Source: a virus. Taken from it: DNA of 34,174 nucleotides. The first letter of the stretch is position 1. Every line of letters begins with the position of its first letter. This document shows positions 11,894 to 34,174 of this stretch, one piece after another. The DNA lies in the IMG/VR virus record IMGVR_UViG_3300032236_000729, positions 1 through 34,174 of that record; one strand, written 5' to 3'. The notes beneath the pieces were generated by a model. It saw only the letters and a program-made list of their open reading frames with translations. It searched no databases and had not been told where the DNA came from. Made by a program: the position numbers and the translations under genes.

Positions 11894-11894
11894 T

Positions 11895-12338: not shown

Positions 12339-12491
12339 TTATTCAGTTGGTGTATCTTGTGGAACTTGTGAGATTGCTTGTTGTCTAATTTTATCTACTA
12401 ATAGTGTTACTTGAGCATATGGCATCTGGCCAAGACTATTTAATACTCCATTTACTTCATCAACAGTCAATTCAAGTTTAATTGTATCCAT
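12339..12491 (-). CDS. Small conserved-type phage protein (50 aa)
   Basis: A 50-codon gene translating to MDTIKLELTVDEVNGVLNSL, GQMPYAQVTLLVDKIRQQ, then AISQVPQDTPTE. Its ATG directly follows the stop of the 130-aa gene. Small proteins with the pattern IELT..EVN.IL..LGQ.PY.QV..L...I..Q are familiar in T4-like and other phages near structural genes; function unknown to me. It is helical and probably a small folded or oligomerising unit. It is the last gene before the terminator. Codon-level plausibility and exact abutment support it, despite its size. Confidence 0.7.
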   Translation of the reverse strand: MDTIKLELTVDEVNGVLNSLGQMPYAQVTLLVDKIRQQAISQVPQDTPTE

Positions 12492-12884
12492 TTATTCCTC
12501 ATTGTTTAACGTTTGGGACATATCAATTTCAGTAGAAACTCTATTATCTCTGATTTTGGCAACATGAATATACAAAGATGATATCATATTATAAACATCT
12601 TGATATGTTGCTGTCTTTTTAGTTGGGTTTCCATTAGAATCTAAAAGTTTGAATGATGTTTTAAGATTGTCGGGAGTTAATTCTTCTCTAACAAAATTAT
12701 TAATATCAGAAACAGTTATATTCTGTTTTATATAGGTGTCTCCTGTATGGATTACTAACTCTTCATTAATCGTGATAGATGGTTTTCTAGTACAATCTGG
12801 TGATTGCAAAGGGTTATCTATCACAACATATGCGGCTCTGGTCCAACTGTTTGCTGAAATAGATGAATGATTATAATTAGTCAT
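12492..12884 (-). CDS. Hypothetical virion-region protein (130 aa)
   Basis: Not recognised. It starts MTNYNHSSISANSWTRAAYV and contains a central strand pair (KPSITINEELVIHTGDTYIK) and a helical segment (TYQDVYNMISSLYIHVAKIRDNR). It has no signal peptide, membrane segment or fibre repeat. It lies six bases after the S74 fibre gene and abuts the 50-aa gene. Small genes directly after a fibre are often its assembly chaperone, which is a possible but unproven role. Confidence 0.6.
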   Translation of the reverse strand: MTNYNHSSISANSWTRAAYVVIDNPLQSPDCTRKPSITINEELVIHTGDTYIKQNITVSDINNFVREELTPDNLKTSFKLLDSNGNPTKKTATYQDVYNMISSLYIHVAKIRDNRVSTEIDMSQTLNNEE

Positions 12885-12890
12885 TATTAC

Positions 12891-15800
12891 TTACTCTCCG
12901 ATTTTACCTTTCAATATATTGATTTCATTTGATAGTTCCTTAATCGCTTCAATTAAAACGGGAACTAACTTTTCATATGCAACCATCTTATATATATCAC
13001 CATCTAAACTGATTGATTCGGAAACTATTTCTGGGAATACTTCTTCAACTTCATTAGCAAGAACACCCATATCTCTTTTTCCTGCTTTACATTCAGTGTG
13101 TTTTATTCCATGTTTCCAATCAAAATATACACCATTTAATTTTGATATTTGTTGCACAGGTGAAAGTATTGGTTGGAAGTTTTCTTTTAGTCTTGGGTCA
13201 GAATATGCTGTTACATTACCAGCAGCAACCATGTTTCCAGACGAATCTGAATACCAAGACCAAGCTCCTCTAGACCATCCACCTAAACCAAAAACGCCAT
13301 CAGCACGAATACCCATCTTGATAGCGTAAGCATCGTTCCAAAATGTTACACCTGCTAGGTTGGAATCACCTGTTCCTGATGCTCTGCATGTGAAACTTCC
13401 TTGAGAAGTATCACTTACTCCCATCGTCATAGATTGGTGTTTTCCCATTATAACGTTCTGTTGTTCATTTCCAGATAAGTAATTGGCAAAATTCACACTG
13501 AAGTTTGCTGGATTATAAACAAACATACTTGTTCCATCATTACCACCCCATAACCAAGCTGGTTGTCCACCTTGACCAGCCCAATTAAAGGTCATTGGTG
13601 AACCCGTACCACCACCACTTGCAAGTGTAGATGATTTACCTGATGTTAAACTTGATGCTGTACCTGTTAATGATGCTCCAGATCCAGAGAACAGAGAAGC
13701 ACTTATTGTGGATGAAGATGATATAGAACCAGTTGATGTAATTGATCCGGGAGCACCAGAAGCACCAACACCAACACCAAGAGAACCAACTTTCATATTA
13801 CCTAAAGCGGCACCTGCTGACCATCCACCAACAGTAAATTGGTTATCTGTGTCCAATCCAAAGTAAGAAGCATATGAACCTGGTCTATGGAAAGACATGA
13901 ATGCAGAACCAGATGTTCCTGGTCCTTGAACCATGATACCACCAAGACTACCAGTTGCAGTCAGTATTGACCCAGTTTGGTTTCCTTGTGAATTTAACTG
14001 TGCAGTGGTATATAAATTTGACCAAGTTACTTGACTTGTTGTTACTGCATTGCCAGATATATTAATGTTCCATGTACCAGAAGCTCCGGTACCAGTCAAT
14101 GTTGGTGCGTATGTATTATAGTTGGATGTGGTAAGTGCTAATCCACTATTAATATACAAATTAGTACCAGGCATTTGGTAATTTGTACCATCATAATAAA
14201 CATATCTTGCACCACTACCTTGGTTTCCTAAGAATACTACACCAGTTCCAGCACTAGAACCAGGTCTGATAGCATAAATGTCTGTGAAGGTTACTGTGGC
14301 AGTTGTTCTTAAATCTTGTGGAGTATTGAATGTCAGTGTGCTACCAGAACCAGTAATGGTTACACCGTTGGTACTGGTTAAAGTAACTGTTCCAGAACTA
14401 GGTGAAGCGGAACCACCTGTACCATTGAATAGGTTTGATGATGTGTTTGATCTAGCATATCCAGACTGAGCATAAGCATTTATATTAGATGTTACTACAT
14501 TGTAATATGAGTTGGCAACATCTGTATATACTTTAGCACTAGCAACACCTGATATAACATTTGATTGCAAGAATGTGTTAGCAGTATTTAAGTTAGTTGA
14601 TATGTATGTATTGGCAACATCTGTATATACTTTAGCACTAGCAACACCTGATATAACATTTGATTGCAAGAATGTGTTAGCGGTATCGGTATATGTTTTA
14701 GAACTTGTTAAACCAAAGTTGATATTTGCTTGCAAATAATTATTAGCGGTATCGGTATATGTTTTAGAACTTGTTAAACCAAAGTTGATATTTGCTTGCA
14801 AATAATTATTGGCAGTATTTAAGTTAGTATTTAATGTATTTGCTGCTAATGATGATGCAAAATTAGAAGAACTCGCTAATGTTAACGAATCACTCTTATA
14901 CTCATCTGTGGTAACTCTGTAATAGTTACCATTATCAACATTATTCATGTCCCAATATTTGTTGGTTTCGTTCCAACGAATTGAAGCATTTGCAGTAGTT
15001 CTATAGACACCAAATCCTGGATTTAAAATTAATGCTGGATTTGGTGTTCCTAAACTAAGAATGAATGATGGTGTATTATAAACAGTAGTACCATTAATTA
15101 TAAAGTTACCAAGAACAGATAGACCAGCAGTACCAACAGTCAAACCATTAGCAGAAATGACAGATCCACCTGAAGATGCATCAATTAAACCATTAGGTGG
15201 TATAACGATGTTAGGAGTGGTGATTCTAGTATTTGCTGTAATAGAATCGACATTTTGATATCCAATTACATTTAAGTTTAGAGTCTGTATTTGGGTATTT
15301 GATTGGATTGAATTACTATAAACATTACTACTGAAGATATTGTTGTTTGATTGCAGTTCATTAGTAAATGTTTTTCCGGTAACTGTCAAAGTAGCAGTAT
15401 TAACACTAGTGTTTGCTTGAAGTATATTGGTGTTAGTTGTGTTAACTACGTTTAATGCACCAGCAGCAATACCTGTATTTGCTTGCAGAGTATTAGTAAA
15501 TGTTTGACTAGTTACAGTTAGTGTAACAGTATTAACACTAGTGTTTGCTTGGAGTATATTAGTGTTAGTTGTGTTAACTACGTTTAATGCAGCGGAAGAA
15601 ATACCACTATTTGATTGTAATTGGTTTGTAAATATTGTTCCAGTTACAGTTATAATAGCAGTATTAACACTAGTGTTTGCTTGGAGTATATTAGTGTTAG
15701 TTGTGTTAACTACGTTTAATGCACCAGCAGCAATACCTGTATTTGCTTGTAATTGATTGGTTACTGTCGTGCCAGTTACGGTTACGTTACTTGAAACATA

Positions 15801-16256
15801 TGTTTGACCATATATTGAAACGGCATTTGCAAATGAAGAAGTGTTGGAAACAAATAACTTTCCATTAATGTTTGCAGTATTTGCTACAGTAAGACCAGTT
15901 CCAGAACCTAATGCTAATATTGGACCACTGACGTTTGCCTGTCCAGCAACAGTTAAACTTGGACCTACACTGGAATAATTTAGGTATACTTGTCCACCAA
16001 CTGTTAGGTTGTTCTGTATGGTTGCCGAAGAACCTATACCAATAGATTGAAATGCTCCAGAGAAGATTGCAGCAGAGTTAACTTGAAGGCCTAGTGTTGG
16101 GTCTTCAAGATACATTGTCCCTGTTGATTTAAAGAAGTTGTTGGATGCTAAATCATTGTTCTGTAAAACCAAATAATTGGTCGTAGTTAACAGATTACCC
16201 CAAGTATTTGAGTAATCTAAAATCTTAAAAATTGGTGCTGGATTATAATTGGACAT
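12891..16256 (-). CDS. Tail fibre (1121 aa) with autocleaving S74 chaperone C-terminus
   Basis: The head (NPAPIFKILDYSNTWGNL, about residues 5-22) belongs to neither head class of the other fibres. Residues 169-300 are three 44-residue repeats, each two 22-residue halves. Residues about 483-600 are coiled-coil-like TANTFLQ...SAKVYTD units. About 740-930 hold phage fibre elements (SGSAFMSFHRPGSYASYFGL, DNQFTVGGWS, GGQPAWLWGGNDGTSMFVYN). Residues 1019-1121 are a peptidase S74 domain: SDPRLKEN gives Ser1019 and Lys1024, followed by GVLANEVEEVFPEIV and EKLVPVLIEAIKEL. Family knowledge says the trimeric domain chaperones folding and then releases itself at the Ser. Probably a major host-recognition fibre. 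Confidence 0.9.
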   Translation of the reverse strand: MSNYNPAPIFKILDYSNTWGNLLTTTNYLVLQNNDLASNNFFKSTGTMYLEDPTLGLQVNSAAIFSGAFQSIGIGSSATIQNNLTVGGQVYLNYSSVGPSLTVAGQANVSGPILALGSGTGLTVANTANINGKLFVSNTSSFANAVSIYGQTYVSSNVTVTGTTVTNQLQANTGIAAGALNVVNTTNTNILQANTSVNTAIITVTGTIFTNQLQSNSGISSAALNVVNTTNTNILQANTSVNTVTLTVTSQTFTNTLQANTGIAAGALNVVNTTNTNILQANTSVNTATLTVTGKTFTNELQSNNNIFSSNVYSNSIQSNTQIQTLNLNVIGYQNVDSITANTRITTPNIVIPPNGLIDASSGGSVISANGLTVGTAGLSVLGNFIINGTTVYNTPSFILSLGTPNPALILNPGFGVYRTTANASIRWNETNKYWDMNNVDNGNYYRVTTDEYKSDSLTLASSSNFASSLAANTLNTNLNTANNYLQANINFGLTSSKTYTDTANNYLQANINFGLTSSKTYTDTANTFLQSNVISGVASAKVYTDVANTYISTNLNTANTFLQSNVISGVASAKVYTDVANSYYNVVTSNINAYAQSGYARSNTSSNLFNGTGGSASPSSGTVTLTSTNGVTITGSGSTLTFNTPQDLRTTATVTFTDIYAIRPGSSAGTGVVFLGNQGSGARYVYYDGTNYQMPGTNLYINSGLALTTSNYNTYAPTLTGTGASGTWNINISGNAVTTSQVTWSNLYTTAQLNSQGNQTGSILTATGSLGGIMVQGPGTSGSAFMSFHRPGSYASYFGLDTDNQFTVGGWSAGAALGNMKVGSLGVGVGASGAPGSITSTGSISSSSTISASLFSGSGASLTGTASSLTSGKSSTLASGGGTGSPMTFNWAGQGGQPAWLWGGNDGTSMFVYNPANFSVNFANYLSGNEQQNVIMGKHQSMTMGVSDTSQGSFTCRASGTGDSNLAGVTFWNDAYAIKMGIRADGVFGLGGWSRGAWSWYSDSSGNMVAAGNVTAYSDPRLKENFQPILSPVQQISKLNGVYFDWKHGIKHTECKAGKRDMGVLANEVEEVFPEIVSESISLDGDIYKMVAYEKLVPVLIEAIKELSNEINILKGKIGE
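14512..14810 (-). repeat. Near-exact coding duplications in the 1121-aa fibre (99- and 66-base periods)
   Basis: Two 71-base copies starting at 14512 and 14611 are 99 bases (33 residues) apart. Directly after them two 66-base copies (14679-14744 and 14745-14810, 22 residues) lie in tandem. The copies match even at third positions. They encode TANTFLQSNVISGVASAKVY-type and TANNYLQANINFGLTSSKTY-type segments. Confidence 0.85.
15357..15752 (-). repeat. 132-base repeat (44 residues, 3 copies) in the 1121-aa fibre
   Basis: Copies begin at residues 169, 213 and 257. Each is two related 22-residue halves, both starting LQxN (for example LQANTGIAAGALNVVNTTNT then LQANTSVNTAIITVTG). The DNA of the LNVVNTTNTNILQANTSVNT part is almost invariant between copies, so the array is recently amplified. 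Confidence 0.85.
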
Positions 16257-16480: not shown

Positions 16481-19400
16481 TTATACTGATGTATTTACGT
16501 TAGATGGTAATGCAATTGCTCTCAAATCATTCAAGAACGGAACATAGGTTTTATCTGTTGTTACCAATACAACTTTGATTGCAAATTGACTGAATGAAGT
16601 ATATGTTTGACCATTATTAGTACTTGTGTAAGTAACATATCCTTGATCGGTTCCAGTTGTCCCCGGTGCAAATGAGAACTCATATAAATCACTTCTAGAT
16701 TGTGAATATAAAGTATCTGAGTTTCTGGTTTTAGTCATTAATTGCCAAGACCCGTCTTCAAACTTCTGTGTGTCTTGTCTATTCAGAATCTTATAGTAAA
16801 CAAGAATATCTGAGTTAACTGGACGATATGCTGTTAAATATACGTTCAAGTCACCAGAATCAAATCCAGCATCCAATACTACTTTTTTAGTGAAGTACTT
16901 AGTTAATGCGGGACCACCTTGAGATGATGTCTCACCAGAAACGATAACACTTGCACCAGTTCCTGGTGTTGTATTTGCATCTGTAATAGTGATAGTTGGT
17001 GTTACTATATACCCAGAACCATTACCACTATTAGCTAATGTTACAGTTTGAATTACACCACCGACAATGTTTGCAGTAGCATATGCTTGAACTGCACCTT
17101 TACCTGTAGGTGTAGAAACAGTAACACTTGTTGTGGTTGCATTATATCCAGAACCACCATTCACTACAGTGATAACATTATTTGACAACTCACAGTTGTT
17201 TATGTTATATTGAATTGTATATAAACTAGTACCTGCATCAGAAATGATAGGACTTACAGCATTATCTATTGAAGATAATGATGCATACATTGAGAATGAT
17301 GTTGGTGAGTTAGCTTGTAATTTTCTTTCCCCATTATTATCATTAAGATAAATGTGGTCGTACATAGTAGTACCATATTTGCCTGGATTGATATTGACAG
17401 GAGAAGTTGTAGTCCCATTTAATAATGTTCCATTATAACTGTATGTAATACCAGTTGATGTTGGTGTGAAATCTGTTGTTGTTAGATTGAATGCATCAAC
17501 ATTGATATCAGTACTTGATACTGATGATACGGTGTTACCAATAGTGTTAGCATTGTTGTAGTAATCAATGTTTTGTTCAATAATAGTTCTACCTGGAAGA
17601 TTTGTAGGAACGACCATTCTAACTGTTGGGTGTTGAGTGATATCAAACACACAACGATCAACCGTGAACATTAGACTTTGATTTTGATCGGCAGTCCATG
17701 TCTGAGCATTCTGAGATATAAACAAACCACCAACATAAGGTGCTGTTGTGATCTTAGTAATGTTGGTTGGTGTTGGGTCAGTAGGTAAATTCTTAACTGA
17801 AGAAGGTATTGCAATATCACCATTAGCAGCAGTCCATAGAGTATATTGATTAGAATTTGATCTTAATACAAATGCATACAAAACACCAGGTTGAATATAC
17901 ACAGGAGCATTAAATGTAAATTCAGTATATGATGTAGAATCCAAGAATTGTGGATTTTGTGAAACCTTAATTTTATCTGATGTTAATGTTACAATACTAT
18001 GATCCAATGTAGATCCATTTGGATAACCATTCAATGTGCCAACGATTGATAATGACACTGGTGAGTTATCACTGGTTGGTTTTGATGAGAAGAAAAATTT
18101 TACAGATGATAAAAATACACCATTTGGATAATTGGTTGGATCGACAATAAATGTTTGTGCAACAGGATCATATGGTGATACATATGATTTAGAAGTAACA
18201 TTGGTTGATGATGTTGTGTATGATACTGATTGTTTATTTGTTTGTACAAAAGTATTTTTAGCACCAGCAGGAGATGCACCAAAGTTTAATTGTTGAGATG
18301 TTGTCTGTAGACCTTCTGAGTAAAAAGTTCCTTCGGCAAAAGTTGTAACAGTATTTAAATCATTATTGATTCTGTTATCTACACGGAATATTCTTTGACC
18401 ATTATGGAAAGTATTAGGTGGTAAACAAAACACACCAGAATAATTACCAATTTCGTTACTAGTAAATCCACCTATAGAGTAAATATCACCAGTAGCGGTG
18501 GTTAATGATGTAGATACATTGGCAACTTTTGTGGTTCCATTGTACCCAACGATAGTTGCAGATTGTCCGATACCAGTACCGGATGTAATATAAACAGTAT
18601 TACCATTGTAGATATTTGCAGTAGAAGATGCCAATGGTGACAACGTTATTGTACTTGATGTTGTATTTGCACTCTTTATTATGCCACCAACATGAGATGT
18701 ACTTGCAACTGTTGCGGTACCGATAGAAGAGTAACTTCCATCAGCATTGAATGTTGCATTAGTTAATGTTGTATTATTATTATATGTTGTGGTATTTCCA
18801 TCAGAAACGACATATAATCTAACTTTAGATGAATCTGTGTAATAATATACATCTAAAACAAATGCTGTTGGTTTAAATGAACCGAGTTGCACATATCCAA
18901 TAATATCACCTTGTTTGAAAGAACCTGATACGGAAGTAAGTTCAATTATATTTGGTTTGCGGATATAATTATCAACACTTATATTATCGAAGAAGTTATG
19001 TAAAGTAGAGTTGAATAATAATCCAGAACTACGGATAATAATTTCTTGTGAACGCATCCAAGGTAGAATACTGATATCAGTAATATATCCATTATTTTGT
19101 GAATATGTATTACCGATACTACTGTATGGTCCAATAATATTATTTTGTTGTTGTTGTAATATTGTAGTGTAAGTATCAGTTGCACTAGTAGTTACAGTTG
19201 TTGTTGATGTACCAACTGATCCTCCAAATGGTCCCCAGAAAGCACCATGATTAATGCGGTTTACTGTGGATGATGAAGTTGCAGTGGATGTGCCAGATAG
19301 AATTGTTGTTCCAGATACGGTTTGCCAATCACCAACACTTAATATATTATTGGTACTAGATGATTGGAATACCTGCAAGTTTGGATCTGTTATCAATAAT

Positions 19401-22400
19401 GAAGGTGCTTGTTTTGTGTCAACCCAGTTATCAACGTTAGGTGATAATGCAACAGTTCCTTCAGAAGAAGATACTGAGAATGGGTTTATGTTTGTTACAC
19501 GACTTGCAATTGGTTGTGAAATAACATTTGCAGTAGTATATGGTAAACTAAAGTAATTAACTAGACCATCACTAGAAATCTTATAGTTCAATGATGATAA
19601 TAGACTTGGTGATGGTTTAGATAAATTATAAGCCAGTGCCAGATTCTTCAATGGAAAGTTCTGCACAGTTTGTGGAGATGACATCTGACGAGTTCTTTTG
19701 TTAATAGATGATGTATAATCAACATTAACAGTATCGGCAGTAGAATAACTAGAGAAATCGTCTGTTAATATACCATTTTTGAATCTGTTTAGGCCATATG
19801 CATCGGTAATTTGCATACCAGTTGCACTTTGTTCTAAAGCACTTAATGAAGTATAGTATTCAACTTGATTAATTCTTGAATCCAATGCAGCAATATCCTG
19901 CATGGTATATCTTCTATGCTGAACCTTTTCTACAGAAAGATCTGCAACTTTGTTTTGTACTTCTGTTGGTAAGTAACCTGTATATGGGTTTAGTGTTAAG
20001 TTTGCTAACACCAATGAACCATCTGGTTCTGTTGGGAAGTTTGGATCTAAAGAAGGTGCACCTTCAATAACTTGCAAACTTCTATCCTTTGTTAATACAA
20101 GCTTGTCTCTACGACCAAGATAATATGAATAATTACATGTGAATAAAGAAACATCCTGTGGTATCAAAATACCATAAGTTGAAGCATTGTTGTTTGAGTA
20201 ACGGAATGTTAATGCGGATTGAGCATTTAATCGTGCTGGTCTAAAGTCAAAACAATCCCTTAGATTATAATATGTTCCGTGAGTACTTTGGTATGTTGGT
20301 AATTGTCTGTAAAAATCAATACCATTAACCGTTGTTGGGTATGATGCAACAGAGAAGTAACCATCACCACCACTATGTTTAAAGTAATTGACTAATACGA
20401 GTAGATTACCAGAAGCTTGTGGTGCACCAGGATTTAATTTTATGGAAGCATGGTCATAGTAATTGTCTCTTTGACCATTATCAAAAATGTAATTGTTAGT
20501 TACATCATATGATGGATTGGATAACATTGATACTGTAGGAACAGTACCAGATACTTTGGTATCAATGATTTTCTGTATACTGTATACGTCTGATAGATAT
20601 AACGATTGCTTATTTCCTGGTGATACTAATCCAGCATTCTTGATGTAAACTTGGCCTGATGAGTTTATAGAATCATCAACATATGTGTTTGTATTAACTT
20701 GTGTACCAGTAGTAACTACAGTACTTGTATTTGCTACGACTAAATTTTTATATTTTAAAATAACGTTCTGACTTGTATCAATAGCATTTGAAACGAATAC
20801 TTTAGCCACGATTGTTGCAGTAAATGCTGTTAAGTCATTGATAGAAGTTGAGAATGTTGCAGTAGAATAGTCAGAACTTAATACTACAGAACGACTTGTA
20901 TTTGCTGATGTGGTCCAAGGAATATTATCCCCGACATTAATTTTAGTATTAGTTCCTTTATTGGTTACGATAATAGTGTAGTTGGTTTTAACTGTTGTAC
21001 CATCTAATGGTGAACCAGTTACATTACCTAAATGTCTAATCAGTCCCAAATAACCACCTGTATATGATACCTGTGCAGACAGTGTTCCACCTGATGTAGT
21101 GAAACCAACACCCCTGATTACTTGTGTGGTTATATATGAACCAGATGAAATTGATTGGACATATGATGTTCCAATAGGGAATATTAGTTCTGGGATTGAT
21201 GGATTTTGTAGAATAGTACCGCCAGTAGATAATCCATTCGATTTACTAGAAACATCAATAGATGCCTTTGCATTAATAGTTGCGGGATATGTTGTTTTTG
21301 TTGCATTTATAATGGATTCTATATCTTTAACATCAAAGATTAATGCGACTGTTGATGTGGTATCTGGATTAACTGACCAACTACTATTTACTGTTGCTAT
21401 CTTTGCTGAACCATTCCAATCAGTAATTGTCCTAAAGTCACCGGCATCTGTTCCTTTGGTGATAGAAAGGTTTACACCAACATATGCACCATTAGAAGAA
21501 GAGAACCAACTTGGTAGAGTTACAGTAGTAGATGTTGATGATACTACATTGCCTGTCAATACACTATTCTGCAAATCATTAACATATAACTTATAAACAA
21601 ATGTATTTGCTGATGTGTCAGTTGTACTATGATCATATTGCAATCCACGTACATATCCAGAAGCAACTAGAGTTGAATTATATGAGTTAGCAGTGGAAAT
21701 GTTTACGTTGGATGTGGGAACACAGTGTAGGTCTATTGCTTGTTCTGTGGTAATGTCAAAGAATGATCCATTAGCTCCACTTAAATTATTAACATAGAAA
21801 TAACTTCCATACCCCATATAAACAGGATCATTAGTTACCGAAGTAGTGGTTCGAGCACGATTTGTTACGATATCAAGTGGTGCAGGATTTTCTACACGGT
21901 AACCATGAACATATGCTAGACCTTTACCCACACTCATTACGTATGTGTTATTTGAAGAATCTGCTGTGTTTAATTTTGGTGTTAGTTTGAAATCGTTAAC
22001 AACATAGTCACCATTTGTTTCATAGTCACGTTTTGCAAAGTAATCATCAATAGTTGCGTATACCGATCCATCAACCATCTTGAATACACTACCATTTACC
22101 ACTCTTACCAACTCAATGAAGTTTTGGTCATCACCAAAAGTTAGTGGTCTTGTGTCTAATGTTAATGAAATTGTATATCTATCCGCACCTGGTGCTTGAT
22201 AGTTAGATGCACCTAATGCTGGGTCTAACAATGAATTGTCATTAATATAATCTGTAATAGTTTCAGTTATTGTTAATCCAATGCGAATACTAGGTGTATT
22301 GTCATATTTCGATAAAATGGTTGTTGAAGGTGAAACTTGTACAAAGTTACCTAGTACATAGAAAACACCTTGAGAAATGGATGCTACAGAAGATAATCCA

Positions 22401-22873
22401 GAAGAATTGATTGTGATTGATTGTGCCGCAAGATTCGAATTGATATCATATATGATATCATTATCAACAAATTGTGCACCTGATTTATAAGATAGAATTA
22501 GTGTTGGTGGGTTACCTTCACCACCAGTTCCTGTGGCAACTGTCACAGCAATAACTCTTGCTATAACGGTTCCAGATGCATTCGTTACTAATTTGTTTTC
22601 AAATTGAGTAACATCAACGTTGATGTTATTGTATGTAGTTTGTAATTTGACATAATAACAATTAAAATTGGTTGTTACTTGTCCACCAGTAACAGGTGAA
22701 TTTTGCTTGAATATATTATCGGCAAATGATGTAATCTGGTTTTGTAAGATTGTCTGAGACTGAGTAAGTTCTCTGGCTTGTACGGCAGATCCTGGTTTAA
22801 ACAATACACGGTGAAAGTTTTTTGCTGGATCAAAATCATCATAATAAGGATCAACGTTAAAATTTATTGCCAT
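16481..22873 (-). CDS. Very large DUF4815-type baseplate/tail structural protein (2130 aa)
   Basis: Residues 9-58 (YYDDFDPAKNFHRVLFKPGS, AVQARELTQSQTILQNQI) are the diagnostic start of the DUF4815 family of phage structural proteins. Around residue 1565 is PYDPVAQTFIVD...FLSSVKFFFSSKP, another block seen in such proteins. Residues about 1895-1980 hold a GGSGY/GNGSGY beta module shared with gp6, gp7 and gp8. The C-terminal 130 residues (VNSDILVYYKILNRQDTQKF, SFSQFAIKVVLVTTDKTYVP) are again family-like. It is the longest gene in the window and follows gp8, the place of gp9/gp10 in T4, so it probably makes the baseplate periphery to which fibres attach. That role is inferred. AAAGG lies upstream of the ATG. 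Confidence 0.8.
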   Translation of the reverse strand: MAINFNVDPYYDDFDPAKNFHRVLFKPGSAVQARELTQSQTILQNQITSFADNIFKQNSPVTGGQVTTNFNCYYVKLQTTYNNINVDVTQFENKLVTNASGTVIARVIAVTVATGTGGEGNPPTLILSYKSGAQFVDNDIIYDINSNLAAQSITINSSGLSSVASISQGVFYVLGNFVQVSPSTTILSKYDNTPSIRIGLTITETITDYINDNSLLDPALGASNYQAPGADRYTISLTLDTRPLTFGDDQNFIELVRVVNGSVFKMVDGSVYATIDDYFAKRDYETNGDYVVNDFKLTPKLNTADSSNNTYVMSVGKGLAYVHGYRVENPAPLDIVTNRARTTTSVTNDPVYMGYGSYFYVNNLSGANGSFFDITTEQAIDLHCVPTSNVNISTANSYNSTLVASGYVRGLQYDHSTTDTSANTFVYKLYVNDLQNSVLTGNVVSSTSTTVTLPSWFSSSNGAYVGVNLSITKGTDAGDFRTITDWNGSAKIATVNSSWSVNPDTTSTVALIFDVKDIESIINATKTTYPATINAKASIDVSSKSNGLSTGGTILQNPSIPELIFPIGTSYVQSISSGSYITTQVIRGVGFTTSGGTLSAQVSYTGGYLGLIRHLGNVTGSPLDGTTVKTNYTIIVTNKGTNTKINVGDNIPWTTSANTSRSVVLSSDYSTATFSTSINDLTAFTATIVAKVFVSNAIDTSQNVILKYKNLVVANTSTVVTTGTQVNTNTYVDDSINSSGQVYIKNAGLVSPGNKQSLYLSDVYSIQKIIDTKVSGTVPTVSMLSNPSYDVTNNYIFDNGQRDNYYDHASIKLNPGAPQASGNLLVLVNYFKHSGGDGYFSVASYPTTVNGIDFYRQLPTYQSTHGTYYNLRDCFDFRPARLNAQSALTFRYSNNNASTYGILIPQDVSLFTCNYSYYLGRRDKLVLTKDRSLQVIEGAPSLDPNFPTEPDGSLVLANLTLNPYTGYLPTEVQNKVADLSVEKVQHRRYTMQDIAALDSRINQVEYYTSLSALEQSATGMQITDAYGLNRFKNGILTDDFSSYSTADTVNVDYTSSINKRTRQMSSPQTVQNFPLKNLALAYNLSKPSPSLLSSLNYKISSDGLVNYFSLPYTTANVISQPIASRVTNINPFSVSSSEGTVALSPNVDNWVDTKQAPSLLITDPNLQVFQSSSTNNILSVGDWQTVSGTTILSGTSTATSSSTVNRINHGAFWGPFGGSVGTSTTTVTTSATDTYTTILQQQQNNIIGPYSSIGNTYSQNNGYITDISILPWMRSQEIIIRSSGLLFNSTLHNFFDNISVDNYIRKPNIIELTSVSGSFKQGDIIGYVQLGSFKPTAFVLDVYYYTDSSKVRLYVVSDGNTTTYNNNTTLTNATFNADGSYSSIGTATVASTSHVGGIIKSANTTSSTITLSPLASSTANIYNGNTVYITSGTGIGQSATIVGYNGTTKVANVSTSLTTATGDIYSIGGFTSNEIGNYSGVFCLPPNTFHNGQRIFRVDNRINNDLNTVTTFAEGTFYSEGLQTTSQQLNFGASPAGAKNTFVQTNKQSVSYTTSSTNVTSKSYVSPYDPVAQTFIVDPTNYPNGVFLSSVKFFFSSKPTSDNSPVSLSIVGTLNGYPNGSTLDHSIVTLTSDKIKVSQNPQFLDSTSYTEFTFNAPVYIQPGVLYAFVLRSNSNQYTLWTAANGDIAIPSSVKNLPTDPTPTNITKITTAPYVGGLFISQNAQTWTADQNQSLMFTVDRCVFDITQHPTVRMVVPTNLPGRTIIEQNIDYYNNANTIGNTVSSVSSTDINVDAFNLTTTDFTPTSTGITYSYNGTLLNGTTTSPVNINPGKYGTTMYDHIYLNDNNGERKLQANSPTSFSMYASLSSIDNAVSPIISDAGTSLYTIQYNINNCELSNNVITVVNGGSGYNATTTSVTVSTPTGKGAVQAYATANIVGGVIQTVTLANSGNGSGYIVTPTITITDANTTPGTGASVIVSGETSSQGGPALTKYFTKKVVLDAGFDSGDLNVYLTAYRPVNSDILVYYKILNRQDTQKFEDGSWQLMTKTRNSDTLYSQSRSDLYEFSFAPGTTGTDQGYVTYTSTNNGQTYTSFSQFAIKVVLVTTDKTYVPFLNDLRAIALPSNVNTSV

Positions 22874-26358: not shown

Positions 26359-29300
26359 TTATCCTAGTATTAATATGTTGCCATCTTCTGTTGTTAATAT
26401 GATACCATTTTCAGTGGTTAGTTGTGGTATGTATTGTGTGCCAACTGGACCAAATATTCTTACACAACTAGTTGGTCCGAATGTTCTATTAACTGATATC
26501 AATGAGTTTGATATAGTAGGTAAATTTGGTGAAACTGATATTGTTCCGTTTACATAATTGACACTGGATACTGTAAATATAGTACCATTTCCTGTAATTT
26601 TTACTTTATCACCAGTATAAACTATATCTTTTAATGGGTATGTTGGATTACTGTACACCCCATTGTTTATAATATCATAAGCACCCGTCAATACTTTAAT
26701 ATTTATAACATTAGATCCAGAGTTTGATTGAACATAAGCAACATTGGCAAAAGTCAACCAAGTATTATTTTGTAATGTTATAGTATTTGATGTGTAATCA
26801 ACAGATTTAACTTCACTTTTTATGTACGGTCCATTGGTTGGTGTTATTTCTACAATATTGTTGGTAGAAATAAAGTTAGCAATATTGGCACCAGCCAAAC
26901 TACTAAATGTGATAATATTGTTACTCTTATTTGTAAAGTCAGTAACCATATTTACCGTACTGCCAGTATACCCGGTATAATCTGCTAATGGTAAACCAGT
27001 AAATAGTGCATCTTGACTATGGAAATTATAATAATTTTCAGATTCCATTGCATATCTTCCTAGAACATTAGTTCCAGCAGGATGCAATAGATTCAATAAT
27101 ATTTCACGATATTTTGCAATTTCTTTATTAACGGTTATTTGGTAGGTATAATTATTGTATACCTCATTCTGTAATACAGTGAAAGAACTTGGTTGTCCTT
27201 GTGTGTTTAGATATTGACCTTGACCAACAACCAGACCATTCAAGAATACTGCACTTGCCTTTGCTGTACCATCACCATAACTAACAAACCCTTGGATATT
27301 CAACCCAGTGATTAAAGGATATTGACTTTCATATCCAACCGGAACCTTATTCGCAATGTTAATTATAATATTATTTCTGTCAATCTTTAGTGGTAGTGTC
27401 GGATTTGGTATAGAAGTATATTCAAATAATCTCAAATTATAAAGTGATTTTGATGGATCTACATCTGGTATTAATAAAGTATATGAATCTACAAAGGCAA
27501 TATATGTAGAATTGTTACTATTAATGCCTTGATATATTATATCACCCTTTACTGGTGGTTTAGTCACTAGTATATTGGATACTACTATGTCTTGTACTTT
27601 AAGTGAAACGTTTGGTGTTGCAATATAATCTTCACCAAAGTTCAATATGTTAATAGATGTTACTGCTCCTGCCCTATCAGTTATTGAAGATAATCTTGCA
27701 CCAGCACCCAATATACCAGTAACTGTTACAATGGCACCTGATGCATTAACATTTGATGATTTTACTGATAATGAAGGTAATTGTATATCATATCCCATTC
27801 CACCTAAAGGATATATAGATTTGCCTTGTATGTAAGAAATACCTGTTATGGAACCACTTGAGTCAACAGATGTAACATTTGCATATGCTCCATAACCAGA
27901 ACCACCCGAAAAAACGATAGTATCGTTTGCAACGTATCCTTTACCACCATTGATGATTTGTATTGGTGACAATATTCCGAAAGAACTTATTAATGTATTG
28001 TCATTTCCATCATTTTTATATATTGACTGTGCTGATATATCGGGTTGGTGTGTCATTCCACCACCCTGATTCGTTACCAATACCGATGAAATTGGATATG
28101 TGGAGAAAGATATAAATGATAAACTGTTCGCAAATGATGTATTTGCATTTGATGTTGGGTGATCAGATAAGAAACTAAATTTCGTGTTACCAATTGGTAC
28201 ATTTTTACCTAACCCAATAGCATTGGTTGGCATATAGGTAACGTTTGCAATTGCACCACCAGCAGAGTTTGCAACTGTAATTACTGCTCCATGTGCTGAT
28301 GTGTTGACAGAATTTACATTTGCTGTTATACCCAAAACACTATTAGCACCAACTCCTGTGTTATATCCAACTGCAATTATTTTACCATTGGCATCTACAG
28401 AAGATACGTGTGCAAAATTATATGGATTAGAGTTAATTATTACATAAATTGGATCATTATTTTGATACCCAACACCACCATTATTTACAGATATTAAAGG
28501 TAATAGGTAAGGTGTTAATGAAGCAACAATTGCAGTTGGACTTTTGGCACCATCATTTAAATTTGAGAATGTTATAACTGTGTTAGGATCATTTCTATAT
28601 CCAAATCCCCCATTATCAACAGTAATACTTTTTACACCACCAGTAGTGGTTTGTGCAACAACTGCTGACGCACCAATACCCTTTGATGAATTTAAACCAC
28701 CATATACAACTACTGGATCACCAGCCTTATAGAATGATCCTCTATTCTTGGGATCTATATTGATTTGACTAATCTGACCAACAATTTTAGCACGTAATGT
28801 TTCAGCACCAGGTGTGTCAGCAGATACTTGAGTCCCATCTTTAAAATATACTGGTTGGTTTGCATTATCTACAACAATAATATATTCACCCGATTGAAAA
28901 AGTCTTTCAATATTTGAGATGAATACTTCTGTTTTTGTTCCAGATATTGTAGAATTTTCTATTGTAGCAATAGATTTTGTTGTTTCACCAAATATTCTAT
29001 AATTGCTTATGTTTAAGAAGTTAGGATCATCTGTTGCCAATCTCAAACTTTTAAATACGAACCATGTTCCAGCAGATGCTTTGAAAACAAAATCCCTTGT
29101 ATTGAATGATTCAAAATCAGAATCGTATAATATTCTAAAAAGAAATTCAAATGATGGGTTAGTTCCCTTTGTTTTATATAATTCTCTGGCAAATCTGATT
29201 AATCTGTTCTGATCTATTAATACATCTTTTGGAAAATTCTGAAGAAAATCATTAACATAATAATCTAAAAATTGTTGTGATGTAGAATCAACATCCTGAT

Positions 29301-29466: not shown

Positions 29467-31571
29467 TACGATTTTGCTGTTATGCTAACTGTAATTGCAT
29501 TTGGATCAAAAGGGTCTACCGTTATTATTTTATTGCGTCCAGAGGATATGATAGTTGTCGTTGGATTAACAGAAATTGCAAGTTGACCTAATGGATTATC
29601 TATCTCAATTGGAGAGAATGAATTTAATGTGACAACACCATTTACATAATCAACTGTACCAATGTTTGGATTCAATATGGTTTTTGCTTGTTGGTCATTA
29701 TTGTAATATGATCTCAATGTTCCATACTGACCTTCTAATATAACTACAGCGGCTGCGTTGCGACCCGTTGTGTCTGATGCCGCAGGAGTTATAGATACTA
29801 TAGCACTGGTGTAATTATTTCCTGTTGTTAATACAGAAATAGATTTTATTGTTCCATTATTATTAATGATTGATTCTGCTGTTGCTCCTTGTCCATCACC
29901 CAGTATACTAACAGTTGGTGCATATTGATATCCGAAACCAGCATTTGTTACTTGAATTGATGAAACACCACCAGTTGAAGATGGGATTTCTTCGATGTAT
30001 ACACCGTCAATAATGTTTGCAAGATTGGTTGGGTCTCTATATTGTACCGATGGGTAACTTGATATACCACTCTGGAACATTCCTTTCTGCAAAGGTACAC
30101 CGAAGAACATATTATATGTAGTTGATGTGGTCAGGTTAGGATATATTTTCTTTTGTAATTTTATTGATATTTCGTTTGCTATAATAGATGGGTTAGTGTT
30201 CTTTATAGCAATCATTAAATCACTTGATGAGAATGTAGAGTTAAAAGTGTTTAGGTTTGTTACTGCATAATTGTTTATCGTTGCGGTAACAAGTTTCTGT
30301 AAATCACTTGAACTTAAATTTGTTTTGGATGGATCGTATAATATACTAGCATCAATCTTGATGTATGTGTAGTCTGGGTCTACGATTGTAGGCACCACAG
30401 TCATAATAGAAATGGGTGCAAGTACTTGATTCACTATAGTAGTTTTCTGAGTGTCTGTTAATGTATAACCACCAGTAGGTTTCAAACAGATATAAACAAC
30501 ACCATATGATGGAGGGTCATTTTCCTGTCCACCCCACACATTCACAGCATCAAATGTAACACCAATATTATTTTGTTGCAATAAAGTGATATAGTCATCT
30601 TTTGTTACAGCACGATTTTGTGCAGCAAATGCTTTAGGTGCTTGGAATTTTATAGAAGAAATGGATTCTTTTTCAGTTCCTGCTGATGCTGGAGTCTGTC
30701 CATATACAGTAGTATTAGTGAAACCTGATACAACATCCATCATCACAAAGTTATTGGCGCCGTGTGCTGAGATTGCTTGTGTTGAGATGTATGATACTTT
30801 TACTACATTACCATCTGTCAGTTTATTTCCGATGATACCATCACCAAATGTTAAGTTGTAGTTACCATTTAACCCCTCTTCCAAGAAATAAATTAAACTA
30901 GTGTCTAATTTAACTGAACCAGTTCCGGTTAGAATTGAATATGGAGATGCTTCTGAATAGATTTGATAATTTGTATCTGATACTGATTGTTGAACCAATA
31001 CTTTAATTGTACTTGTATCAATATTAGCATCTGGGAGTTCAAATGTGTATGTTGGGTTTGATGTCGAATCAACAGTGAATGTATAGTTTACTGGTATGCC
31101 TTCCTTCAATTCTACGTTATAGAAGGTTGCCGTATTAGTATTAGTATCAGTATTAACGGTTGTAGAATCAGTTGTTACGAAGTTATAGTTTATACCATTT
31201 ACTGATTCTGATAAAAAATTAGTATATGATGGTAATGTTAAACTGGAATCGGTAACACCACTTGCTATTACAGTAACATATGATGTTGGGGCAATTGCTG
31301 ATTTTGGTACATAATTTAACAACTTGGCATGAGATACAACAGCCGAACGTTGTAATGCAGTATCAAAGAACATTTCATTAGCAACCATGTTCAGATAGAA
31401 TGCATTATATTGTGTGTTGTATGCTAGAACATCTAGTAATATAGATAGACCAGATCCATCAAAGTTATAGTCTTTAAACATATCCTGTGATTTTAGGAAT
31501 GTTTTTAGATTCCCTTTGATTGCATCAAAGTCTAATCCGACTAATTGTACGTTTGAATTTGCTCCCGCCAT
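29466..31571 (-). CDS. 6: gp6-like baseplate wedge protein (J-like)
   Basis: 701 aa; T4 gp6 is 660 aa. The N-terminus (AIKGNLKTFLKSQDMFKDYN, FDGSGLSILLDVLAYNTQYN, AFYLNMVANEMFFDTALQRS) and the later SIKFQAPKAFAAQNRAVTKD-like region are typical of gp6/J baseplate proteins, which form the inner iris ring of the baseplate and bind gp25 and gp7. Residues about 534-613 are an added module (VTNAGFGYQYAP...GDGQGA) of the type repeated in gp7, gp8 and the DUF4815 protein. It overlaps gp25 and gp7 by one base each, a sign of coupled translation. Confidence 0.92.
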   Translation of the reverse strand: MAGANSNVQLVGLDFDAIKGNLKTFLKSQDMFKDYNFDGSGLSILLDVLAYNTQYNAFYLNMVANEMFFDTALQRSAVVSHAKLLNYVPKSAIAPTSYVTVIASGVTDSSLTLPSYTNFLSESVNGINYNFVTTDSTTVNTDTNTNTATFYNVELKEGIPVNYTFTVDSTSNPTYTFELPDANIDTSTIKVLVQQSVSDTNYQIYSEASPYSILTGTGSVKLDTSLIYFLEEGLNGNYNLTFGDGIIGNKLTDGNVVKVSYISTQAISAHGANNFVMMDVVSGFTNTTVYGQTPASAGTEKESISSIKFQAPKAFAAQNRAVTKDDYITLLQQNNIGVTFDAVNVWGGQENDPPSYGVVYICLKPTGGYTLTDTQKTTIVNQVLAPISIMTVVPTIVDPDYTYIKIDASILYDPSKTNLSSSDLQKLVTATINNYAVTNLNTFNSTFSSSDLMIAIKNTNPSIIANEISIKLQKKIYPNLTTSTTYNMFFGVPLQKGMFQSGISSYPSVQYRDPTNLANIIDGVYIEEIPSSTGGVSSIQVTNAGFGYQYAPTVSILGDGQGATAESIINNNGTIKSISVLTTGNNYTSAIVSITPAASDTTGRNAAAVVILEGQYGTLRSYYNNDQQAKTILNPNIGTVDYVNGVVTLNSFSPIEIDNPLGQLAISVNPTTTIISSGRNKIITVDPFDPNAITVSITAKS

Positions 31572-31963
31572 TACTTTGCCCTTTTGAGAATTATATTGAT
31601 GCCTGTTGGTGTTGTATTATTACCGATATAAAAAAACATAGATACCTGATAAGCATCTTGATCAGGGTATGCGTTTATAGAGATGTTTGCAACTGACGCC
31701 CTTGGTTCATAATTATTAATGGTTCTGACTATTTCATCCTCTAGTAAACCGGCTGTTAGAGGATTTATTGGTTCAAATAATAACTTATTTATTTGTGATC
31801 CTAACAAGGGTTGAAATGGCCTTTCAAAAGGACTAGTGAGTATTAAATTTTTTACAGAACGAATCACCGATTGTTCATCGTAACTTAAAGACACATCTTT
31901 AGTTCCAGGTTGAGGTAAGAACCTCAAATCTAGGTCTGAGTAAGTTGTATTTTGTATTGCCAT
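31571..31963 (-). CDS. 25: gp25-like baseplate wedge subunit
   Basis: 130 aa, T4 gp25 being 132 aa. The GPW/gp25 family is clear: YSDLDLRF, KDVSLSYDEQSVIRSVKNLI, PFQPLLGSQINKLLFEPI, NPLTAGLLEDEIVRTI and the signature NYEPRA. T4 gp25 sits in the inner wedge core with gp6 and gp53, contacting the first sheath ring. The spacer to the spike gene carries TATAAATA. It is the first of three genes joined by TAATG overlaps. Confidence 0.95.
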   Translation of the reverse strand: MAIQNTTYSDLDLRFLPQPGTKDVSLSYDEQSVIRSVKNLILTSPFERPFQPLLGSQINKLLFEPINPLTAGLLEDEIVRTINNYEPRASVANISINAYPDQDAYQVSMFFYIGNNTTPTGINIILKRAK

Positions 31964-31977: not shown

Positions 31978-32856
31978 TTATGCTGGAGGATTAGTTGTTG
32001 TTGGGAAACCCAGACCAGGAGAATATAGATGTGTGTGTGTATTAAAGTTAATACCACCAATCAATGCACCACCAGTGAGTGTTGATAATCCTGATGCAGC
32101 AAATGTGCCAGTAATTGCCGTTGCTCCTGTTATAGCAGTTGCTCCTGTTATAGTAGTTGATCCAGTGATAAATGTTGATCCAGTGATACTTGTTATTGGT
32201 GAAATTATAGTGAAGAATGGCATTGTTGCAATCAAACCAACAGTACCAGTTATAACATGAGGAAGTGGTTCTCCACCTGCTATTGGTACGCCACCAAGGA
32301 TGTTTAACGATCCAACGGCACTGATATGTCCACCAGCATTCAAGTTACCATAGGCTGCTACAGATTGTTGACCAATTATATCACCCCTTACATTAAGATC
32401 ACAGTTGACATAAACAGCATCTGTTGCCTGTAGTGTGATATCAGATGCAGTTATTATAACAGAACCTGCCACCGAAGTATCCATATCACCTTCAACAGTT
32501 TGAGAGCAATCACCACTGACTATTAAATTAGCATCACCACCAATGTCAGCAATAAGATTACCATCGACCTTTAATTCAGTATCACCATAAACATGAACTG
32601 TACATGCTCCTTGTATGATAACATCATTATCCTTTACTACAACATGAAACCCATTACCAACTATCTTATGAACAACATTACCTGATGCCTGATATTCTGT
32701 AAATGAACCAGTACGATGTTGGTGTCTTATTCTTTCGTTGCCTGGAGTGTCATCCATTTCTATAGAATGACCAGATGCAGTTACAGTGGCATTATTATAT
32801 GGGTACTGAGGTTTATTTTCCTCTGAACTTGGTGTTGGTTCAAACTTTAAACCCAT
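31978..32856 (-). CDS. gp5 C-terminal-like central spike (beta-helix needle)
   Basis: 292 aa. SGHSIEMDDTPGNERIRHQH then GSFTEYQASGNVVHKIVGNG is the standard lead-in to the gp5/VgrG-type spike. It is followed by beta-prism/helix repeats (about 60-165: DNDVIIQGACTVHVYGDTEL, LIADIGGDANLIVSGDCSQT). In T4 this part is fused to the OB-fold and lysozyme of gp5; here it is a separate gene, while a gp5 OB-fold piece ends at 34084. Residues about 221-263 are six-residue repeats (ITGSTx). The end INFNTHTHLYSPGL has His274/His276, like the metal-binding HxH apex of phage spikes. No lysozyme motif is present. It would form the membrane-piercing needle tip under the hub. Confidence 0.85.
   Translation of the reverse strand: MGLKFEPTPSSEENKPQYPYNNATVTASGHSIEMDDTPGNERIRHQHRTGSFTEYQASGNVVHKIVGNGFHVVVKDNDVIIQGACTVHVYGDTELKVDGNLIADIGGDANLIVSGDCSQTVEGDMDTSVAGSVIITASDITLQATDAVYVNCDLNVRGDIIGQQSVAAYGNLNAGGHISAVGSLNILGGVPIAGGEPLPHVITGTVGLIATMPFFTIISPITSITGSTFITGSTTITGATAITGATAITGTFAASGLSTLTGGALIGGINFNTHTHLYSPGLGFPTTTNPPA
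32075..32190 (-). repeat. 18-base tandem repeats in the spike gene
   Basis: About five or six units coding a six-residue period (GSTFIT, GSTTIT, GATAIT, GATAIT, GTFAAS, GLSTLT). Two adjacent units are near-identical in DNA and two others are near-identical to each other. Likely a stacked beta segment near the spike tip. Confidence 0.75.
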
Positions 32857-32857
32857 A

Positions 32858-33160
32858 TTACTTTACCGAGTCTCTTAACTTAAAGAATTCTTGTATATGA
32901 TCCAATCTTTCTTTATTTAGAATGGAATTAATCATTTCTTCTGTATGTTGCATCTTTGTTGATAATATATTTTTTGCATCAGACATTGACTTTTCCAACT
33001 CTGGATGTATTTCATTATCAATATTTGAAGTGGTTTCTCTCAAAGATTCATGGTGATCATTTACAGAAGATATTTTGTCTTGCAAATCATTGATATGATT
33101 TTGCAAATCTTCAAAATGAGACATCAATTCTGCCATTTTTGGGTGTAGTTCTTCTTCCAT
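32858..33160 (-). CDS. Coiled-coil protein between hub genes (100 aa)
   Basis: MEEELHPKMAELMSHFEDLQ, NHINDLQDKISSVNDHHESL and SMSDAKNILSTKMQHTEEMI form an almost continuous helix with heptad spacing. It is acidic, His-rich and lacks a signal or membrane segment. It stops one base before the spike gene. An assembly partner or linker for the spike or for the preceding helical protein is plausible. No family recognised. Confidence 0.6.
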   Translation of the reverse strand: MEEELHPKMAELMSHFEDLQNHINDLQDKISSVNDHHESLRETTSNIDNEIHPELEKSMSDAKNILSTKMQHTEEMINSILNKERLDHIQEFFKLRDSVK

Positions 33161-33174
33161 AATATTACTATATG

Positions 33175-34074
33175 TTATAATTGAGTTATAGTTTCATTTA
33201 CACCAGGAATATTTGGTGGTATATTTTCTGGTGATGTTGTTCCAGCTTCGGCATTATTAGTGGCAGTTGTTGTATCAGTTACTGCTTTAACTTGGTCTTT
33301 AACCATAGTTATCATACTATTTTGTAATGCAGTCAAACAGTTTGTAACTAGTTGTAATAATTTAGCAGGTAGTGACATCATGAATGTGATAAGTTCTTGT
33401 GCTGCATCTATCCATTCTTTTAATGTCTTTATTTGTTTCTTTACCCATTTCACATATACTTCAATTTCTTTTATCTTTGCTTTGATTGCTTTGACTGCAT
33501 TTTTTATCATCTCTACTACTGGATCTATCAAATCTGTTGATACCCACTGAGCAAAATCTTCTAATGCTTTAGTATTTACTGCTGGAAAAAGTTCAAACTC
33601 TACTTTTATCTTTTTGAAAAGTGCCGGTAATTTGATACTACATGTGTGTGCCGGAAGAGTATTGTTTAGTGCTGTAGTTGTGTTAGCAATAATCCCCTGT
33701 GCAAATTTAGGAAGACTCGATCCATCCTGTTGTGATACAGGAGAACTGTTTGATGCACCAGGTGGTGGAACTGGTGGTTTAACTTCTTTGGGAGTTCCGT
33801 TGGATGAATATTTTTGTGGGGCATAGTTTGGTGCAACACCAACAGGATCTTCATGACCTGGTATCGTATATCCAATATCAAGTTGTTTTGCAAAATTTGT
33901 TGCATCAAGTTTATTTTCCGATGTATAAACATCTTCCCCAGTTACTATATTTTGAACAACATATGTCGGTGGAGGTGTTTCTCCACTGGGTAAAGCACTG
34001 TATTGATACTCTATGGTTCTATAGTCCCCATTTTTTGATACCGTACTATACACATTATAACTTGATACTGCCAT
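33175..34074 (-). CDS. Helical hub-region protein of unknown function (299 aa)
   Basis: The N-terminal about 75 residues are a small beta domain (RTIEYQYSALPSGETPPPTY, VVQNIVTGEDVYTSENKLDA) echoing short host-like query domains. A proline/serine-rich linker (about 88-125) follows, then a long amphipathic helical half (DPVVEMIKNAVKAIKAKIKE, YVKWVKKQIKTLKEWIDAAQ, LPAKLLQLVTNCLTALQNSM). It is Lys-rich with hydrophobic faces and no clear transmembrane segment. It lies between the gp5 OB-fold end and the spike gene, so it is probably a virion or assembly protein of the hub; tape-like, membrane-active or chaperone roles are all possible. I do not recognise the family with confidence. Confidence 0.6.
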   Translation of the reverse strand: MAVSSYNVYSTVSKNGDYRTIEYQYSALPSGETPPPTYVVQNIVTGEDVYTSENKLDATNFAKQLDIGYTIPGHEDPVGVAPNYAPQKYSSNGTPKEVKPPVPPPGASNSSPVSQQDGSSLPKFAQGIIANTTTALNNTLPAHTCSIKLPALFKKIKVEFELFPAVNTKALEDFAQWVSTDLIDPVVEMIKNAVKAIKAKIKEIEVYVKWVKKQIKTLKEWIDAAQELITFMMSLPAKLLQLVTNCLTALQNSMITMVKDQVKAVTDTTTATNNAEAGTTSPENIPPNIPGVNETITQL

Positions 34075-34083
34075 TTTTATAAC

Positions 34084-34174
34084 CTATTCTTTTATATAAG
34101 GTAATACACCCATCATTATTGGAAACTGTGCAGACTCTCCGTCCATGAAGAAACCAACAATCCAATCACCAACC
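34084..34174 (-). CDS. 5: gp5-like hub protein, C-terminal end of OB-fold part (partial)
   Basis: The right edge of the window opens inside a minus-strand gene that reads VGDWIVGFFMDGESAQFPIM, then MGVLPYIKE and TAG. The pattern VGDxVxGFFxDG..xQxPxxMGxLP is that of the N-terminal OB-fold domain of T4 gp5 and related baseplate hub proteins. The gene stops here rather than running into a lysozyme or beta-helix, so the gp5 architecture seems to be split over two genes. The rest lies outside the window. Confidence 0.75.
   Translation of the reverse strand, partial: VGDWIVGFFMDGESAQFPIMMGVLPYIKE

Follow-up and report, generated by a model that had tools for sequence, protein, structure and literature searches.

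A T4-type central hub and spike probably made from separate genes, with a helical domain in the place of the lysozyme

Introduction

Phage T4 gp5, a puncturing needle that is made in one piece and carries its own lysozyme, is the textbook model. We asked whether the central hub and spike are made in the same way in the virus of IMG/VR record IMGVR_UViG_3300032236_000729 and, if they are not, what stands where T4 has its lysozyme. The record, called the window here and analysed over its whole length of 34,174 nucleotides (nt), is linear, and linear records are often fragments. A sequence-only reading had proposed that gp5 is split in this virus: that one protein ends directly after the OB-fold signature (GVLPYIKE, then a stop), that the spike is a separate gene without a lysozyme, and that two proteins lying between them may replace the lysozyme domain or act as spike chaperones. 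As judged by sequence comparison, the OB protein, a helical protein that we call HMD (a name coined here) and the beta-helical spike are three genes, and HMD is homologous to a domain fused behind OB elsewhere. Our analysis makes it probable that this is a T4-type central hub and spike made from separate genes, with an HMD collar in the place of the lysozyme and an exchangeable lysin encoded elsewhere.

The OB protein and the spike are encoded by separate genes

All tail genes of the window lie on the minus strand. The genes of the hub and spike, with the parts recognised in them, are as follows.

34084..34174, minus strand: stand-alone OB protein (gp5 N-terminal domain), last 29 codons and stop, the remainder lying beyond the window
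33175..34074, minus strand: 299-amino acid (aa) helical hub protein (HMD), the split-off partner of OB (fused-chain profile, E = 1.8e-18)
33811..34074, minus strand: N-terminal extension of HMD, about 88 aa, found in the window lineage only among 183 loci compared
33274..33687, minus strand: helical domain core of HMD, residues 130-267, with invariant H143, C145, I229, L235, P236, C246 and L247
32858..33160, minus strand: 100-aa protein of coiled-coil-like composition, found in the window lineage only among the same 183 loci
31978..32856, minus strand: stand-alone spike, 292 aa, predicted gp5-type trimeric beta-helix (phrog_430, 1.9e-40; T4 gp5 residues 383-504, 4.7e-17)
32029..32037, minus strand: H-T-H near the C-terminus of the spike, a candidate metal-binding apex (HxH motif)

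The frame at the right edge of the window reads ...VGDWIVGFFMDGESAQFPIMMGVLPYIKE-stop, and the OB profile covered 27 of its 29 codons (E = 1.5e-10), so that the protein does end after the OB signature. Five contigs of the same lineage, at 96% and 92-93% identity, came from scans of IMG/VR in which the 299-aa protein and the spike served as queries. The whole OB gene was read in one of them, L002, where the protein next to OB is 96% identical to that of the window and the last 29 OB residues are identical. This gene begins at the gp27-like stop codon and encodes 99 aa that consist of the OB domain alone; the protein matched phrog_430 (3.1e-30) and aligned to residues 6-88 of T4 gp5 (2.4e-10), and the match to Pfam Gp5_OB was below the cut-off (20.2 versus 25 bits). 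Since the whole gene contains OB only, a lysozyme N-terminal to OB is excluded for the window lineage. A search of the window alone with PF06714 gave no match, probably because only 29 OB codons are present, and as the controls were also silent this result was not used. A second full gp5 was not found: there was one OB match per record in all eight records examined, which may be incomplete (the largest is 180 kb), and the window genome is itself a 34-kb fragment.

The spike is a separate gene, as had been proposed, with 1.2 kb between the OB stop and its start. It matched phrog_430, a gp5 family, in the spike part of that family, and the match to Pfam Gp5_trimer_C was below the cut-off (18.2 versus 30.9 bits). 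Residue 14 of the spike aligned to residue 383 of T4 gp5, which places its start at about residue 370. The lysozyme domain of T4 gp5 spans residues 174-339 and the beta-helix residues 389-575, as given in part of PMC4576200, and an excerpt of PMC3004832 places the cleavage of gp5 at 351/352. The gene break therefore falls in the linker between lysozyme and beta-helix, where T4 gp5 is cut. Neither OB, the 299-aa protein nor the spike showed a muramidase domain in searches of Pfam, PHROGs and PDB sequences, and families named 'tail lysozyme' were matched solely in their OB or spike part. The T4 gp5 family has all its domains in one chain; here OB, the 299-aa protein and the spike lie on separate genes.

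The motif near the end of the spike recurs across the group. Of 52 distinct complete spikes from the group, 51 have HxH within the last 45 residues, L138 being the exception, as compared with 3 of 62 distinct one-chain OB-spike proteins; 9 of these 62 contain HxH anywhere in the last 300 residues. The HxH motif forms iron sites in the spikes of P2, phi92 and the pyocin, according to parts of PMC6116203 and PMC10811340, and the T4 tip is the PAAR protein gp5.4 (PMC4576200, in part). By its motif, the window spike is thus a candidate iron-tipped spike.

The 299-aa protein corresponds to a helical domain fused behind OB in relatives

To determine what the 299-aa protein is, we compared loci from two further scans of IMG/VR. 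The first used seven aligned OB domains, and the best 80 of at least 587 relatives were taken as loci; the second used six helical domains, four from fused and two from separate forms, and gave 184 relatives, from which 80 loci were taken. In 8 of the 80 loci of the OB scan the OB chain continues into a helical domain, which has an H-x-C-D start and an LP.(8-9)CL end, and the spike is the separate next gene. OB and the helical protein are separate, like those of the window, in L025, L027 and L028 of the same 80 loci and in L019.

The HMD profile was built from the eight fused chains only and tested on the separate proteins. It found the 299-aa protein of the window with 64 bits, while the best unrelated real frame scored 9.3 bits, the best reversed sequence 8.0 and the best of 1,000 shuffles 7.1. 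Other separate HMDs were found at 3.6e-46, 2.8e-38 and 5.9e-37, and one that is cut by the contig end at 7.5e-4. Because a profile made from fused chains alone recognises the 299-aa protein, two separate genes in the window correspond to one chain in relatives. We conclude from these sequence matches that the 299-aa protein is the helical portion of the hub, separated from OB and positioned where T4 has its lysozyme. The seven invariant positions were taken from 13 aligned members, and the signature H.C..LP..CL was present in all 61 distinct complete HMD members; in the window it is formed by HTC at 143-145, LP at 235-236 and CL at 246-247. For residues 1-60 of the N-terminal extension, a weak model suggested four strands and a helix (block pLDDT, the predicted local distance difference test score, of 51-73).

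The 299-aa protein had no Pfam match over the cut-off and no lysozyme among the Pfam and PHROG matches listed. No credible HMD match was obtained by tblastn against 50,697 phage records with the window protein, L019, L029 and L064 as queries (two matches to L029 were listed at E = 1), and among GTDB genomes 52 pattern matches gave none that was confirmed.

As to the 100-aa protein, it could not be a general replacement of the lysozyme, since it is confined to the window lineage among the loci compared. Among its listed matches (25 of 57 Pfam families and 25 of 31 PHROG families) there were weak ones of coiled-coil type. A match to M41 peptidase (3.8e-5, below the cut-off) looks like coiled-coil composition and was set aside, and the weak matches to 'tail associated lysin' (0.06) and 'tail fiber protein/ lysozyme' (0.096) were not counted.

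OB and HMD occur both separate and fused

The split arrangement is not restricted to the window lineage. Among 61 distinct complete HMD proteins, 51 were separate, 10 were fused to OB and none was fused to a spike; for 49 of the 51 separate ones the locus also contained a separate OB gene and a separate spike gene. The 101 HMD loci, overlaps included, divide as follows: OB, HMD and spike were all separate in 84, five more were separate and cut before the spike, and two were cut before OB; OB and HMD were fused with the spike separate in nine, and one fused locus was cut. These locus counts include several loci per contig, and the counts of distinct proteins are free of such repeats. The 47 distinct separate OB genes encode 96-125 aa, save one of 215.

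We then placed these states on a tree of the gp27-like protein with 90 rows (29 separate, 8 fused and 53 with OB and spike in one chain). The tree gave seven changes for the separate state, at least five of them forced by well-supported branches, six for the fused state and four for the one-chain state, counts that long branches leave unsure in parts of the tree and that recombination between gp27 and OB would also inflate. The simplest reading is repeated fission or fusion.

Lysin domains lie in another tail gene of relatives and can differ between contigs with the same hub

The wall-lytic domains of this lineage were found in another tail gene. Their place, the lysin slot, is the next gene past the gp26-like one and lies on the opposite strand, about 6 kb from OB (the names gp26, gp3 and gp54 are provisional and follow gene order and PHROG matches of some members). 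The putative tape measure of HTVC008M also lies downstream of gp26, there two small genes further on. In G009, a contig of the window lineage, the slot encodes a 512-aa protein with a transglycosylase (PF01464, 6.5e-33) and phrog_2013 'lytic tail protein' (1.5e-37), whose best PDB matches were the phage tape-measure protein 9b45 (7.1e-14) and SLT70 (1.2e-12). It also has an M15-like part, identified by a motif and by a local profile that itself included G009. We describe the slot product as a tape-measure-like lysin because of where its gene lies and because the best PDB match of the G009 protein is a tape measure.

The slot gene was read in 17 contigs, including G029, which ends inside OB and belongs to the window lineage, and a lytic domain was recognised by search in 10 of them. 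SLT was found in G009, G029 (2.8e-18) and G015 (2.6e-10), M23 in G012 (1.9e-19; the slot protein of G013 is identical), a transglycosylase match in G026 (1.3e-4) and TIGR02594 in G010 and G011 (4.7e-22 and 3.5e-22), where PF07486 was below the cut-off. The GH19 profile matched in 6 of 29 records: two matches were in a tail gene of 547-578 aa, the slot gene of G007 and G022, and the other four lay at a distance from the hub on the record, in a free gene for a probable endolysin of about 210 aa. In the eight long records of the HMD group, PF00959, PF08291, PF01464, PF18013 and PF01510 were found in none, and PF00182 in four, over the cut-off in two. A free cell-wall hydrolase gene (PF07486, E down to 1.7e-26; a frame of 174-209 aa) lies on the strand opposite to the lysin slot in G022 (1437-1775), G015 (20557-20880), G001 (20798-21121) and G007 (26535-26855). 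We also observed a one-chain form, L021, with OB, spike and a GH19-type lysin behind the spike (phrog_181, 1.9e-46); L022 and L023 are near-copies of this chain.

Two contigs of the window lineage, L016 and L017, share one hub and differ in the lysin. They are base-for-base identical over 7,410 bases (locus 6001-13410), which include the gp27-like gene, OB, HMD, the 100-aa gene, the spike, gp25 and beyond, and the window has 92.8% nucleotide identity to them across 5,822 bases. Upstream of this block the similarity falls off towards gp26 and stops at the slot gene. The slot encodes SLT and an M15-like part in one contig and TIGR02594 in the other. Over positions 1-3350 of both loci the slot is unalignable and the adjoining genes are divergent, which marks a recombination boundary. 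L015, from another dataset, carries the slot version of L016, and this version is therefore not the accident of a single contig; a chimeric join in L017 is a possible source of the difference. A third version (L018/G029) also contains SLT, but shares only 29% identity with the G009 version where the two match best. With hub and lysin on different genes, the lysin could be exchanged without touching the hub.

How the hub may be built, and alternatives

Combined with what is known of T4, these observations would fit the following mechanism. The OB trimer would cap the gp27 trimer, as in T4. HMD would form an alpha-helical collar between OB and spike, in the place of the lysozyme, and may hold the spike non-covalently; T4 arrives at this junction afterwards, when gp5 is cleaved at 351/352. 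The metal-tipped spike would pierce the outer membrane and be lost after contraction, and the tape-measure-like protein would then exit through the tube so that its lysin could open the wall. In a broader form, which we put forward tentatively and hold a little short of an even chance, there is a widespread T4-like group in which the OB base, a new alpha-helical HMD collar with two invariant cysteines and a detachable metal-tipped spike are separate, OB and HMD have repeatedly undergone fission and fusion, and wall cutting has passed to an exchangeable lysin in the tape-measure slot, the choice of which can follow the host wall.

We considered whether the helical protein could instead be an assembly factor, acting as a chaperone for the spike or for its docking on OB and missing from the virion or present there in minor amounts. 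In favour of this, the HMD gene adjoins the spike, at -26 to 15 nt in the listed loci and at 317 nt in the window lineage; however, it lies upstream and not downstream of the spike, and in 10 of the 61 distinct HMDs it forms one chain with OB and is a permanent part of the hub. A chaperone fused to the hub would remain in the virion unless it were cut off, and we regard an assembly role as unlikely. Less probable still is a membrane-active role, in which hydrophobic helices of HMD would enter the host membrane after the spike is shed and form or guide a DNA channel. The best 19-residue hydropathy of the HMD core had a median of 1.59 and was at least 1.6 in 48% of 61 members, and 11 of the 25 PHROG families listed for 13 HMD members were tape-measure proteins. 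Yet the window protein reaches only 1.26, amphipathic coiled coils yield the same hydropathy values, and the tape-measure matches, which are weak, may be due to helical composition.

The proposal that the proteins between OB and spike replace the lysozyme held for the 299-aa protein in position, relatives having the same domain fused behind OB, and was not supported in activity. That this protein is a divergent peptidoglycan hydrolase taking over from the gp5 lysozyme is suggested by its gene lying between OB and spike, but we consider it very improbable: no lysozyme, peptidase or other hydrolase family was matched in Pfam, PHROGs or PDB sequences, the invariant residues are a histidine, two cysteines, an isoleucine, two leucines and a proline, the one acidic residue that is nearly invariant, a D following the first C, has S in its place in the window protein, and the lineage has its lytic domains in another tail gene. 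An origin of the split in the assembly or sequencing of metagenomic contigs can hardly be credited. Every HMD member found is from an uncultured contig, but four further contigs of the lineage have the same genes and 51 distinct complete HMD proteins are separate.

Several observations weigh against a split hub with a helical collar and an exchangeable lysin. Both AlphaFold models obtained were poor (mean pLDDT 45 and 49). The collar is suggested by fusion, position and predicted helices, and the presence of HMD in the particle, its trimer state and its contact with OB and spike are predictions. In 7 of the 17 slots no lytic domain was recognised (G001, G004, G005, G008, G019, G023 and G025), the PDB search having covered G001, G004 and G025 of these; five of the seven have a lysozyme-like G[KR]YQ..P motif, which was not counted. 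The window does not reach as far as the slot, of which three different versions occur in its lineage. Finally, the one-chain OB-spike phage L297 also has a lysin domain in the same region, so relocation of the lysin is not strictly tied to the split.

Neighbouring genes

The gene that follows the spike in the window lineage is the following.

31571..31963, minus strand: gp25-type wedge protein, next gene after the spike (PF04965, 9.6e-12)

In other loci a 266-292-aa protein with the start ..F.RLG[YF]NF.. comes after the spike (L019 9441-10250, L025 6091-6966, L034 1885-2682). Relatives of that of L025 were present in 80 of 183 loci, and 78 of these loci also have the helical domain; none was found in the window lineage. 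Between the OB and helical genes of L025 (4106-4330) there is a 75-aa gene with a CHCHDD stretch, and in other loci the gap is 213-232 nt; relatives of this gene were found in 24 of 183 loci, every one with the helical domain. In L053 (5001-5902) a 221-aa OB-spike frame overlaps a 91-aa spike frame, possibly through a contig frameshift.

Past the right edge of the window, related contigs encode a gp27-like tail protein (phrog_350, 4e-80), labelled by its position and by its counterpart in Ochrobactrum phage OC, which is annotated from 1WTH_D, as well as gp53 (phrog_232, 3.7e-32) and a tail-tube cap (phrog_230, 2.5e-35). Elsewhere in the window, a 1292-aa protein (4232-8110) has a major tropism determinant N-terminal domain (PF18454, 1e-9) and is probably receptor binding, two long tail proteins of 848 and 1121 aa (440-2986 and 12891-16256) each carry a Peptidase_S74 intramolecular chaperone close to the end, and a 2130-aa protein with DUF4815 (9.2e-62; 16481-22873) is the longest frame listed.

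Significance and comparison with known systems

If the proposed arrangement is true, a gp5-type hub can do without the covalent link and without an enzyme of its own, HMD is an undescribed helical hub component, and the choice of lysin can follow the host cell wall while the hub stays constant. Near-identical natural pairs with the same hub and a different lysin could be used to test what the virion lysin contributes to wall specificity. Where a protein is annotated 'baseplate hub subunit and tail lysozyme', the lysozyme part of the name can mislead. No account of the three-gene HMD form, of an HxH spike on a T4-type helix or of the lysin slot was found in the literature searched, which is weak evidence of novelty, as most subscription journals lay outside the search.

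The closest comparison is T4 gp5. The OB and spike of the window lineage are clear homologues of its parts, in the same place after a gp27-like gene, and the separate spike of the group corresponds to mature gp5C. Unlike T4 gp5, the group has three or more genes, a helical domain instead of the lysozyme and an HxH spike end. In Methylophilales phage Melnitz (MZ577097) gp5 is likewise divided, into neighbouring genes with the labels 'OB domain protein' and 'baseplate hub subunit/tail lysozyme', and a split gp5 as such is therefore already on record; a word search of the Melnitz paper found no discussion of it. The Melnitz gp5 has no HMD and is cut at a different place. An endolysin-like domain (phrog_2649, 2.7e-9; phrog_894, 7.9e-13) follows OB in the one gene and the spike in the other (L009 6001-9044), and Pfam VanY was below the cut-off in both halves.

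The gp5 of Prochlorococcus phage P-SSM7 and the gp5-like protein of Xanthomonas phage X1 consist of OB, a middle that is helix-rich by eye and a spike, with no lysozyme family in Pfam at 0.05; they are one chain, unlike the proteins of the window lineage. Homology of HMD with the cyanophage middle was not supported by hhalign (35 versus 31 sequences), which gave a probability of 1.4% and 2.7% for the reversed control. With hmmsearch on 31 cyanophage middles and X1 the best score was 15.4 bits, for a single cyanophage sequence (E = 2e-5 in this set of 32), and that of X1 was 8.8 bits, a signal that is not nothing and that, with helical composition on both sides, was not counted as homology. Pelagimyophage gp5 is described, in part of PMC7029224, as very divergent and falling into various clusters, with adaptation to the host cell wall supposed.

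In P2, OB and spike form one chain. The central spikes of P2 gpV, phi92, the R-pyocin and Milano have HxH near the C-terminus, as in the group, whose helix is T4-gp5-like and differs from P2-type spikes. A relative likewise has OB and spike in one chain (PMC11448403, in part). For the lysin, the nearest parallel is found in T5 and TM4, where the wall-cutting domain lies in the tape-measure protein (excerpt of PMC6116005); the lysin slot of the group, whose product is a possible tape measure, belongs to T4-like contractile tails, unlike T5 and TM4.

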